In this document: in pieces, positions 19,277 through 21,749 of the stretch
Numbering within the stretch: the first letter of the stretch is position 1
How the letters are laid out: each line of letters opens with the position of its first letter
From: Flavobacterium sp. UBA6721
Lineage (GTDB): Bacteria > Bacteroidota > Bacteroidia > Flavobacteriales > Flavobacteriaceae
Reading direction: 5' to 3'
DNA length: 21,749 nucleotides
Assembly: GCA_002454195.1 (NCBI GenBank)
Contig: DKIJ01000036.1
Coordinates: forward strand, 1 to 21,749
Notes under the pieces: generated by a model
What the model saw: the letters and a program-made list of their open reading frames with translations, nothing else
Told to the model about the DNA's origin: nothing
Database searches by the model: none
Made by a program: the position numbers and the translations under genes

Positions 19277-20158
19277 ATGCAAATACTAGACGGAAAAAAA
19301 ACTTCGGAAGATATTAAAAATGAAATTGCTGCTGAAGTACAACAAATGAAAGCCAACGGCGAAAAAGTGCCTCATTTAGCTGCAGTAATTGTTGGTAACA
19401 ACGGAGCAAGTTTAACATATGTAGGAAGTAAAGTTCGCTCTTGTGAGCAAATTGGTTTTGATTCTACATTAGTAGCTTTACCAGAAGAAACTACAGAAGC
19501 TGAATTGTTAGCAAAAATAAAAGAGTTGAATGAAGATGATAATCTAGATGGTTACATCGTACAACTGCCTTTGCCAAAACATATCGACGAAGAAAAAATC
19601 CTTCTAGCTATTGATCCTCAAAAAGATGTTGATGGTTTTCATCCAACTAACTTTGGACGTATGGCACTTGAAATGGAAACTTTTTTACCTGCTACTCCAT
19701 TCGGAATTATGGAGTTGTTAGAGCGTTATAAAGTGGGAACTTCAGGAAAACACACCGTTGTAATTGGTCGTAGTCACATTGTAGGTCGTCCTATGAGTAT
19801 TTTGATGAGCCGTAAAGGTAATCCTGGTGATTCTACAGTAACTTTGACACACAGTAGAACTAAAAATTTAGAAGAATATACTAAAAATGCCGATATCATT
19901 ATTACAGCTTTAGGAGTTCCTGAATTTTTAAAGGCAGATATGGTAAAAGAAGGAGTTGTAATTATCGATGTGGGAATTACTCGTGTGGATGATGCGACTA
20001 ATTCAAAAGGTTATGTAATTAAAGGAGATGTTGATTTTGAAGGTGTAAGTAAAAAATCTTCTTTCATCACTCCGGTTCCAGGTGGAGTAGGACCAATGAC
20101 AATTGCAATGCTGTTAAAAAATACGCTTTTGGCTAGAAAAATCAGAAGTAGAAAATAA
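19277..20158 (+). CDS. folD: Methylenetetrahydrofolate dehydrogenase / methenyltetrahydrofolate cyclohydrolase
   Basis: 293 residues, normal length. It interconverts 5,10-methylene-THF, 5,10-methenyl-THF and 10-formyl-THF using NADP, in cytoplasmic one-carbon metabolism. Family motifs in order: [21 protein letters not shown] with the YVxxK lysine at 52, [38 protein letters not shown], the dinucleotide-fold [14 protein letters not shown], and C-terminal [16 protein letters not shown] purine-rich AAAAAAGAAAG precedes the ATG. It follows ffh on the same strand with its own clear terminator; a separate promoter was not identified. Confidence 0.98.
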
Positions 20159-20180
20159 AATAGTGATAAACAATGTTTAT

Positions 20181-20212
20181 AAGCCTTAAACGAAAGTTTA
20201 GGGCTTTTTTTT
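20181..20212 (+). terminator. Terminator of folD
   Basis: An 11-bp stem (20181-20191 with 20196-20206, one wobble) closed by a GAAA tetraloop is followed by a run of T to 20212, 22 bases after the folD stop. A classic intrinsic terminator. Confidence 0.92.
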
Positions 20213-20269
20213 ATCTTAAAAATTGCATAAATTTTGTTGGAAAAAGCTTCTCAATACAATTTAATGAAA

Positions 20270-20277
20270 TACTTTTG
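20270..20277 (+). promoter_or_regulatory. Candidate -7 box (TACTTTTG) for corA and its leader
   Basis: TACTTTTG matches TAnnTTTG and the following bases (GCAGCACTTTAAAAA) resemble those after the argS box (GCGCACTTTAAAAA). Transcription would start near 20284, leaving a leader of about 105 bases before corA. The -33 position reads TTC at N19. Confidence 0.5.
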
Positions 20278-20303
20278 CAGCACTTTAAAAAACTCAATCC
20301 GCA

Positions 20304-20336
20304 ATGGACGATTATTATTCGGAAAAACTAGTATAA
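20304..20336 (+). CDS. Possible 10-residue leader peptide upstream of corA
   Basis: ATG at 20304 opens a ten-codon frame (MDDYYSEKLV) that stops at 20334-20336. It starts about 20 bases after the predicted transcript start and ends one base before the first arm of a hairpin pair. The second and third residues are Asp, a feature that in mgtL-type leaders makes translating ribosomes sensitive to low Mg. Such a short frame can arise by chance; its position is the main evidence. Confidence 0.35.
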   Translation: MDDYYSEKLV

Positions 20337-20337
20337 T

Positions 20338-20388
20338 ATAGCTTTTGAAATAGGTTTCAAAATGCTATTAACCTTTTTATAGCATTTT
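20338..20388 (+). promoter_or_regulatory. Alternative hairpins (antiterminator/terminator-like) in the corA leader
   Basis: Structure A: 20338-20350 pairs with 20355-20368 (13 bp, one bulged T, loop TAGG). Structure B: 20359-20368 pairs perfectly with 20379-20388 (10 bp, 10-base loop), with a T-run over 20385-20390. The segment AAAATGCTAT (20359-20368) belongs to both, so A and B exclude each other. B ends three bases before the corA ATG at 20392, so it could stop transcription or hide the ribosome site. The pairing is read directly from the sequence; the regulatory role is inferred. Confidence 0.55.
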
Positions 20389-20391
20389 TTA

Positions 20392-21318
20392 ATGAGAGCA
20401 TTTTATAAAAATAATAACGGATTAATTGAAGTTGAAGCATGGACTCCTAATTGCTGGATCAATGTTGAATGTCCAACAAAGTCAGAAAAAAAATATTTAC
20501 TTGATGAACTTCAAATTCCTGAAGCCTTCTATAATGATATTGCAGATATTGATGAAAGACCTCGTATTGAAGTCGAAAGTGGATGGACGCTTATTATTCT
20601 TCGAATTCCAGTAAAAAGTAACGATGTAAAACTACCGTTTCAAACAATTCCAGTAGGAATCGTTTTTAAAGGTGAAGTTTGTGTTACAATTAGTTTTCAA
20701 GAAACCGAAATGCTTACTGACTTTGTAGCTTACACTAAACGTAAACGAATCGATATCAAAGACAATTTTGATTTGGTTTTAAAATTATTATTGTCTTCTA
20801 GTGTTTGGTATTTGAAATATTTGAAACAAGTAAATCAAAAAATAAAATTAGCCGAAAATAATCTTGAAAAGTCTATCAAGAATGAAGAATTGCAAGCTTT
20901 ATTGCAAATCGAAAAATGCTTGGTTTTCTTCATGACTTCCTTAAAAGGGAATGATATTTTATTGCATCGAATTCGAAATATCAAATCACAAAAAGAAAAT
21001 TTTGATCCTGAATTGCTAGAAGATGTCGAAATTGAATTGCGTCAGGCTCAGGAAACTACAAATATTTATAGTGATATCTTAACGGGAACTATGGATGCCT
21101 ATGCCTCGGTTATATCAAATAATATGAATACGATAATGAAGCAAATGACTTCTATTTCGATTATACTAATGATTCCAACGTTGATTGCAAGCTTGTACGG
21201 AATGAATGTACCTAATAATTTAGAGAACAACCATTACGGCATTTGGATCATTATTTTTATTTCGTCTTTGTTGTCTCTTTTTGGGGTTCTTTTGTTTAAG
21301 CGTAAAAGATGGTTTTAA
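20392..21318 (+). CDS. corA: CorA-family divalent metal (Mg/Co) channel
   Basis: 308 residues. CorA proteins form pentameric inner-membrane channels for Mg and other divalent ions. The N-terminal ~235 residues are the cytoplasmic alpha/beta domain and long helices (ENNLEKSIKNEELQALLQIE, EIELRQAQETTNIYSDILTG). Two membrane helices follow: ~250-270 (ISIILMIPTLIASLYG) and ~283-302 (GIWIIIFISSLLSLFGVLLF). The signature GMN is at 270-272. The outer loop after GMN reads VPNNLENNHY rather than the MPE loop of the enterobacterial protein, so ion preference may differ. The C-terminus is basic (KRKRWF), as expected for the cytoplasmic end. The upstream leader suggests regulated expression. The gene ends 11 bases from the convergent receiver remnant. 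Confidence 0.93.
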   Translation: MRAFYKNNNGLIEVEAWTPNCWINVECPTKSEKKYLLDELQIPEAFYNDIADIDERPRIEVESGWTLIILRIPVKSNDVKLPFQTIPVGIVFKGEVCVTISFQETEMLTDFVAYTKRKRIDIKDNFDLVLKLLLSSSVWYLKYLKQVNQKIKLAENNLEKSIKNEELQALLQIEKCLVFFMTSLKGNDILLHRIRNIKSQKENFDPELLEDVEIELRQAQETTNIYSDILTGTMDAYASVISNNMNTIMKQMTSISIILMIPTLIASLYGMNVPNNLENNHYGIWIIIFISSLLSLFGVLLFKRKRWF

Positions 21319-21329
21319 AGACTTCAGTA

Positions 21330-21749
21330 TTAATTTTGGAGTTGGCTTTGTTTGGCTATTAATTCTTCCAAATTTTTTAATACCACGGGTTTGGTAATAA
21401 AATCATCCATACCCATAGAGATTGCTTTTATTTTATCTTCTTCAAAGGCACTAGCGGTAACCGCAATTATAGGTGTTGGATTTATTTGATATTTGGGTAA
21501 AGCATGGATTTTTTCGGTAGCTTGAAAACCGTCCATTTCTGGCATGTGTAAATCCATGAAAATGATGTCATTGTCGTTTTTTTCATAAAGACTTAGAGCT
21601 TCAAATCCATTTTTAGCAATGTCTGCGCTTATATTTATTTTGTCTAATAATTTCTTTAAAACCTTTTGATTGGATATGCAAACAAAAACGGCACATTAAG
21701 TTAAGCTACATTTTTGTAATTAATTTGATTGTTAAATTCTTCAATAGTT
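21330..21749 (-). pseudogene. Disrupted receiver domain, probably the end of a hybrid histidine kinase
   Basis: The 121 codons from 21695 to the stop at 21330 encode most of a CheY-like receiver: NQKVLKKLLDKINISADIAK, FMDLHMPEMDGFQ with the phospho-acceptor Asp, AVTASA and TKP. The first strand, normally hydrophobic residues followed by two acidic ones, reads AVFVCISNQ, so the Mg-binding acidic pair is missing. A stop (21698-21696) lies directly before it. In another frame, 21749-21704 reads TIEEFNNQINYKNVA and ends in a TAA (21703-21701), resembling a kinase-receiver linker. The simplest reading is a hybrid kinase gene with a small deletion/frameshift and a stop; sequencing error is an alternative. 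An ATG at 21557 would start inside the phospho-acceptor motif and is not a credible gene start. The gene probably continues past the right edge. Confidence 0.6.

Follow-up and report, generated by a model that had tools for sequence, protein, structure and literature searches.

A conserved acidic leader ORF and two mutually exclusive hairpins as a candidate translation-dependent attenuator of corA in Flavobacterium and other families

Introduction

The window analyzed here, a 21,749-nt stretch of DNA from Flavobacterium sp. UBA6721, carries the gene for the Mg2+ transporter CorA behind a ten-codon open reading frame (ORF) and two overlapping potential hairpins. Is this region a switch for corA, and if it is, what does it sense and at which step does it act? 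The corL-corA and mgtL-mgtA loci of E. coli and Salmonella, as described in PMC11552253, likewise have a short ORF in front of a Mg2+ transporter gene and two mutually exclusive RNA structures. In the account of mgtL in PMC11282234, ribosomes dissociate at the EPDP start of the leader when Mg2+ is low, and acidic or proline residues matter.

The idea of an attenuator upstream of corA is well supported by comparison between genomes, which bears on the ORF and its conservation, on the two mutually exclusive predicted structures, and on where these lie with respect to the corA start and the stop codon of the leader. From these features we infer that the ORF is translated, in which direction it regulates, that initiation rather than termination is controlled, that ribosome drop-off is the sensing step and that Mg2+ is the signal. 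Taken together, the region is probably a translation-dependent attenuator controlling initiation at corA, in which early ribosome loss is the ON condition and low Mg2+ the likely trigger.

Results

All features of the locus lie on the + strand. The upstream gene folD (19277-20158) is followed by a terminator-like hairpin with a long T-run (20181-20206), found in a terminator scan of 19900-21749, which parts folD from the corA transcript. A TAnnTTTG box pointed out in a sequence-only reading of the locus is present at 20270-20277 as TACTTTTG and represents a Bacteroidetes –7 promoter element; 131 of the 132 distinct Flavobacterium loci have a TAnnTTTG or TAnnTTCG box no more than 70 nt from the ATG of the leader. 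The spacing from promoter box to transcription start in F. johnsoniae is given as 4-5 nt in PMC6847099, and from this spacing and the position of the box, transcription would start at 20282-20283, about 21 nt 5' of the leader ATG. The same reading had placed a ten-codon frame, MDDYYSEKLV, at 20304-20336, and the putative leader ORF ATGGACGATTATTATTCGGAAAAACTAGTATAA, encoding MDDYYSEKLV*, has exactly these coordinates. Its most conserved part, as judged from the codon table and the unbiased motif search described below, is the core MDDYYS of codons 1-6 (20304-20321). Behind the ORF follow hairpin 1 (20338-20368; 5' arm 20338-20350, 3' arm 20355-20368), the proposed ON structure, and hairpin 2 (20359-20388; arms 20359-20368 and 20379-20388), the proposed OFF structure, which would occlude the start of corA. 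The ATG of corA, the gene proposed to be regulated (20392-21318; PF01544, E 4.1e-49), is three bases past the 3' end of hairpin 2.

To follow the frame in relatives, CorA was searched in 398 genomes of the genus, 364 of which had some match at an E-value of 0.001. The 150 matches listed ranged from 100 down to 62% identity; the loci of 30 were taken automatically and those of 80 of the other 120 by hand, which left 40, a few of which were added by later searches. Together with additions from the phylum sample described below and from close CorA relatives in named genomes, which belong to Flavobacterium, the set comprised 218 loci. Their upstream regions fall into 157 distinct ones, and Flavobacterium accounts for 140. 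In 136 of these 140, corA is preceded, at a distance of 68-93 nt, by an ORF that begins MD or MND, so that the frame is conserved in relatives as the sequence-only reading had suggested should be checked, and it has counterparts in other families as well. Because Flavobacterium leaders had to begin MD or MND under the search rule, residue counts within this set are partly circular; the leader starts of L024 and L030 were shifted to the inner MDDYYS or MNDYYS. The four regions in which no MD/MND leader was found are L108, L109, L110 and L112, and in these corA stands close behind the apparent end of folD.

A search with the unbiased motif ATGGAYGAYTAYTAYTCNGA in 299 genomes of the genus gave 33 matches in 33 genomes. 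All 33 lie before corA, each 85-91 nt upstream of a corA among those listed, and the backwards pattern used as a control gave a single match. The core varies in length by codon-sized steps (MDDYYS, MDDYYYS, MDDYS), and divergent Flavobacterium leaders such as MDDHPK, MDDDRKK, MDDSQRKYY and MDSYQRK keep the acidic start, which is partly imposed by the search rule. By comparison, the C-terminal half of the leader is unconserved, its length in Flavobacterium running from 4 to 24 codons. A peptide that acts in trans, on CorA or elsewhere, would account for the conserved N-terminal residues. We consider it extremely improbable, given this free C-terminal half and the cis arrangement of hairpins that is kept beside it.

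CorA orthologues were found in other families in a phylum sample of 296 genomes. Within the family of Flavobacterium, 149 genomes (mostly one per genus) gave other CorA matches of 21-42% identity, mostly of a longer type. In a second family (f11), an orthologue was found in 62 of the 101 genomes searched at an E-value of 1e-60; the analysis covered 60 of these 62 places and set aside two partial matches. This family is probably Bacteroidaceae, since the named proteins close to one of its CorA sequences, among the best 120 listed, come from Prevotella and Marseilla. A leader beginning MDD, as the search rule for f11 demanded (residue counts are again partly circular), precedes corA in 55 of the 60 loci at 90-248 nt, and was not found in the other five; examples are MDDYHAENMN, MDDYPANSNEKLG and MDDSNPRTYSIVLTYPAGL. 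The unbiased pattern ATGGAYGAYTAYYMNNCG had 50 matches in the 101 f11 genomes, 46 of them before corA, and its backwards control had three. A general genome element was rejected as an explanation of the motif, as all but four of the 50 f11 matches lie before corA. Of these four, one is within a frame that we take to be NlpC/P60-like, one is in a different long frame, one reaches a stop at codon 5, and one stands opposite a long ORF. The last, the frame MDDYYSMMSKEHFRVVCSHPPI* at L349:247, has no adjoining corA in the stretch read and is probably a chance match.

More distant samples extend the distribution. A sample of the order (346 genomes) showed the leader as MDDYHPERNNEFL or MDDYHPKRNYQLL in all three loci of a third family (f57) and in none of the one locus of f2. 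A sample of the class (295 genomes) contributed eight loci that represent six more families, and five of the eight have a leader: MDDYHPEID in L351, MDDSIPRETKTVSNK in L354, MDDYYPKNLIITE in L357, MEDYYPKNIIVSE in L358 and MDDYPADGNQRVKP in L360; none was found in L359, L361 and L362. One of these further-family leaders, MEDYYPKN, has Glu in place of Asp and was found without the MD/MDD start rule. In all, seven families show the leader (f1, f11, f57, f122, f112, f109 and f117). At the level of sequence, the observation made in one genome is confirmed and extended to seven families.

Two families outside the class, f12 and f17 (the latter perhaps Chlorobiaceae, as we assume), contributed fourteen loci whose CorA is 61-66% identical to that of the window. 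No MD/MND leader was found within 160 nt of corA in 13 of the 14; the remaining locus, L195, has the frame MDSEKYIRQSQA, which starts MDS 146 nt upstream and which we took to be spurious and set aside. Since these CorA proteins are so similar and yet have no convincing leader, the distribution of the leader, judged from the upstream regions, does not just follow CorA identity. The loci concerned (L180-L183, L185-L193 and L195) possibly hold a corA that was transferred without its switch. The leader was likewise found in neither of the two f5 loci.

We further analyzed the core codon by codon. Codon 2 (20307-20309) is GAC in 183 of 190 leaders (125/132 in Flavobacterium, 55/55 in f11 and 3/3 in f57), compared with a GAC share of 30% among the 317 Asp codons of the ORFs in the window; in the further families, L351 has GAT and L358 GAA at this codon. 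Of 132 Flavobacterium leaders, 108 have TCG at codon 6 (20319-20321), and of 55 f11 leaders, 52 have NCG (TCG, GCG or CCG) there despite the differing residue. Synonymous changes at codons 2-4 also occur. Conservation at synonymous sites, as it appears in this comparison, goes beyond what the peptide alone explains, and would be expected if the stretch were first of all a motif in RNA or DNA, such as the binding site of a protein, with the ORF incidental to it. The changes that the stretch has tolerated argue against such a motif, which we regard as highly improbable: indels are codon-sized, Asp is replaced by Glu, other substitutions preserve the amino acid, and the position of hairpin 1 tracks the stop codon. 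The codon-sized indels and the Asp-to-Glu change suggest instead that the leader ORF is translated.

The sequence-only reading had drawn two mutually exclusive hairpins that share 20359-20368, and folding confirmed both the hairpins and their overlap at these positions. Hairpin 1 (20338-20368) has a predicted energy of –9.2 kcal/mol and a z-score of –3.81, a fold matched by 1 of 200 shuffles. For hairpin 2, folded over 20357-20391, the values are –8.3 kcal/mol and –6.57, and 0 of 200 shuffles did as well. The fold of the whole 117-nt stretch 20284-20400 is unremarkable (z –0.94), and the idea of a conserved hairpin at the 5' end, across the start of the leader, was rejected, as the fold of 20284-20340 does not stand out (z –0.36). 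The case for the structures rests on the comparison between loci. For the other loci, we used a combined test that asked for stable hairpins (–4 and –5 kcal/mol) with at least 4 shared bases, and for an end of hairpin 2 no more than 6 bases from the corA ATG, with 20 dinucleotide shuffles per locus as a control; leaders more than 140 nt upstream (7 of 55 in f11) were left out of this test and of the geometry analysis below. It was passed by 92% of 132 distinct Flavobacterium loci vs 3% of shuffles, by 71% of 48 f11 loci vs 36% of shuffles, and by 100% of the three f57 loci vs 15% of shuffles. Crude hairpin windows gave mean z-scores of –1.48 for hairpin 1 and –2.18 for hairpin 2, the former window not taking in a clade whose hairpin 1 is longer.

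Compensatory changes, which had been proposed as a check on both stems, were found unevenly. The alignment of the window's own clade comprises 48 sequences, 45 of them distinct; in it, 91.5% of the cells of hairpin 1 are paired, and both the 19 cells changed on both sides and the covariation score are above all 500 shuffles; the two pairs changed on both sides are not above shuffles. Hairpin 2 of this clade is 84.8% paired, with covariation not above shuffles. The F. johnsoniae-type clade (50 sequences) has a hairpin 1 that is 95.8% paired with covariation above all 500 shuffles, and a near-invariant hairpin 2 that is 93.8% paired and shows no covariation. It is the third clade (20 sequences) that supports hairpin 2, with strong covariation and five pairs changed on both sides, while its hairpin 1 shows weak covariation. 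Sliding the partner by 1-3 columns reduced pairing to 22-73%. Alignment A2 was made without L114 and L129 (2 of 22), and no covariation alignment includes the 13 divergent sequences, of Flavobacterium type or from f11, that make up group X less L005, L088 and L265. Because kinship between the sequences inflates covariation scores, the stronger argument for the two structures is that clades and families appear to build the same two-hairpin layout from dissimilar sequence.

The position of hairpin 1 relative to the leader provides a further line of evidence. Its start lies at a median of 36, 39 and 40 nt past the leader ATG in Flavobacterium, f11 and f57, and its median distance from the stop codon, counted from the first base of that codon, is 4, 5.5 and 1 nt. 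The downstream reach of a ribosome is about 15 nt. With this reach assumed, the start of hairpin 1 would be under a ribosome at the leader stop in 131/131, 43/46 and 3/3 loci, one of the 132 Flavobacterium loci being without a usable fold. This placement fits the earlier proposal that a terminating ribosome would block hairpin 1 and favor hairpin 2. With codon 6 or an earlier codon in the P site, the start of hairpin 1 would lie beyond the ribosome in 129/131, 45/46 and 3/3 loci. On this model, a ribosome leaves hairpin 1 free as long as it is within the conserved codons 1-6, because from there it does not reach the start of hairpin 1.

At its other end, the predicted hairpin 2 comes to within a median of 0, 3 and 0 nt of the A of the corA ATG in Flavobacterium, f11 and f57, where 0 means that the A is paired. 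An alternative hairpin that covers the start or Shine-Dalgarno (SD) region, as in a translational attenuator, is thus predicted at corA. When the footprint of a terminating ribosome was masked, predicted accessibility of the corA start fell from 0.29 to 0.22, from 0.42 to 0.33 and from 0.45 to 0.25 in the three families, and shuffles were flat or rising; the change exceeded 0.1 in only 46 of 132 Flavobacterium and 22 of 55 f11 loci, and in 3 of 3 f57 loci. Without a ribosome, the corA start of Flavobacterium is predicted to be mostly buried at equilibrium (0.29 open), and the ON state would therefore need kinetic trapping by hairpin 1. An SD-like GGAGG precedes corA in L278-L281, L284, L290, L291, L293, L316, L335, L343, L351, L354 and L360; the phylum is described as naturally without SD sequences in PMC6847099. 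In five folded examples (L316, L335, L343, L278 and L290), the GGAGG-like site is paired in hairpin 2.

Hairpin 2 had also been described as terminator-like, and for the window there is something to be said for this, as six T follow the hairpin core (20383-20391). The description fails to generalize: among 136 Flavobacterium loci, 14, with the window as one of these, have at least five consecutive T in the last 12 nt ahead of corA, as do 3 of 55 f11 loci, and in 91 of the 136 the longest run is four. Neither is hairpin 2 among the predictions of the terminator scan of 19900-21749. A hairpin with a T-run, as in an attenuator with an intrinsic terminator, is thus not found before the gene across the loci, and an intrinsic terminator was rejected as the general output. 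Attenuation of transcription just before corA, whether by hairpin 2 as an intrinsic terminator or by Rho, through which corL and mgtL work according to PMC11552253, is improbable in our judgment; besides the rarity of T-runs, the pairing of an SD-like site in hairpin 2 in f11 examples speaks against it. Start-site occlusion fits these sequences better than intrinsic termination, since T-runs of at least five are rare and structure in the start region tunes initiation in F. johnsoniae (PMC6847099). Translational coupling or fusion of leader and corA was rejected, the two standing in all three relative frames.

Discussion

The features described above can be assembled into a mechanism. The transcript would begin about 21 nt before a short ORF with the acidic pair of MDD. 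A ribosome that finishes the leader would sit at the stop, on the 5' arm of hairpin 1, and so block this hairpin; the shared middle arm would then pair downstream as hairpin 2, burying the start region of corA and holding the gene OFF. In other families, hairpin 2 would bury the SD-like site. If a ribosome never starts, or is lost within about six codons, hairpin 1 could form and take the middle arm, and corA would be ON. The likely trigger for such loss, by analogy with E. coli mgtL, is low intracellular Mg2+, which would cause ribosomes to drop off at the acidic N-terminus.

With mgtL and corL the locus shares, at least as predicted, the essential layout, i.e., a putative short ORF immediately before the gene of a Mg2+ transporter, a pair of RNA structures that exclude each other, and an acidic N-terminus in the form of an MDD or MED start, the latter being partly circular through the search rule. 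Proline, which like the acidic residues matters in mgtL (PMC11282234), occurs at codons 4-7 in 27 of 55 f11 leaders by a count made by eye. The Asp-Asp of the leader is a milder motif than the EPDP of mgtL. Leader translation is inversely related to the transporter in corL and mgtL as described in PMC11552253, and would be so here; the proposed sign matches that of corL, where preventing translation by removal of the leader start raises corA in E. coli (PMC11552253). Unlike corL and mgtL, the locus belongs to a different phylum, and its output would seem to be that the corA start or SD site is occluded, where theirs is Rho termination.

By this analogy, a Mg2+ sensor is what we would, with good reason, infer. 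The same leader and hairpins could in principle answer to another signal that alters completion of the leader, such as the rate of initiation, the supply of Tyr or Asp, or an elongation or rescue factor. In favor of this, Tyr is common at codons 4-5 of Flavobacterium leaders; against it, the gene proposed to be regulated encodes a Mg2+ transporter, and leaders such as MDDHPK, MDDDRKK and MDDSNPR have no Tyr but keep the acidic start (partly by the search rule). We regard a signal other than Mg2+ as unlikely and low Mg2+ as the likely trigger.

Among systems known from the phylum, tetQ of Bacteroides is subject to translational attenuation, and in tetQ and erm-type attenuators, as presented in PMC5418344, a ribosome-binding site is exposed or buried by alternative structures in dependence on a leader. 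The corA leader would resemble these in its output and differ in its inferred sign, which is opposite in that a ribosome at the leader end would close the gene, and in its target, a Mg2+ transporter gene where theirs is a drug-resistance gene. Leader-peptide attenuation has also been described in the same genus, at amino-acid operons of F. psychrophilum (PMC9723704); those leaders act on the transcription of biosynthesis operons, in contrast to the control proposed here. The statement in the sequence-only reading that no such leader had been described in Bacteroidetes was, in view of F. psychrophilum and tetQ as reported in these two sources, too strong in its general form; for corA, none was found in the literature searched. 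The main text of PMC9723704, which tabulates 64 structured 5' regions, does not mention corA, and no corA leader element is described in the open-licence PMC literature among the matches listed, a bare entry in the supplement of PMC9723704 or in the B. thetaiotaomicron sORF list of PMC7366714 being possible. Neither the window nor 20 loci gave an Rfam match at the gathering score; a known Rfam element was rejected, the sole sub-threshold match being L10_leader (E 0.1) at 20159-20220, over the folD terminator.

Within the literature searched, CorA would be the first Mg2+ transporter of the Bacteroidota described as controlled by a leader peptide, with hosts that include soil and water flavobacteria and Prevotella-type bacteria. 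It adds a short ORF that is conserved in at least seven families and has a proposed role, and it makes ribosome loss at an acidic start, as a Mg2+ sensor outside the enterobacteria and with a different output, directly testable. A broader reading, to which we hold only tentatively, is that the leader is an old Mg2+ sensor of the Bacteroidia, in which ribosome loss at the MDD start is converted into occlusion of the corA start. If so, the logic of mgtL and corL had two separate origins or goes back much further than supposed, and the stability of ribosomes at acidic starts would be a general bacterial gauge of Mg2+. A natural test of the need for the core may be at hand in L088, where the leader is cut to MDVN* and the arms of hairpin 1 are, by eye, apparently kept.
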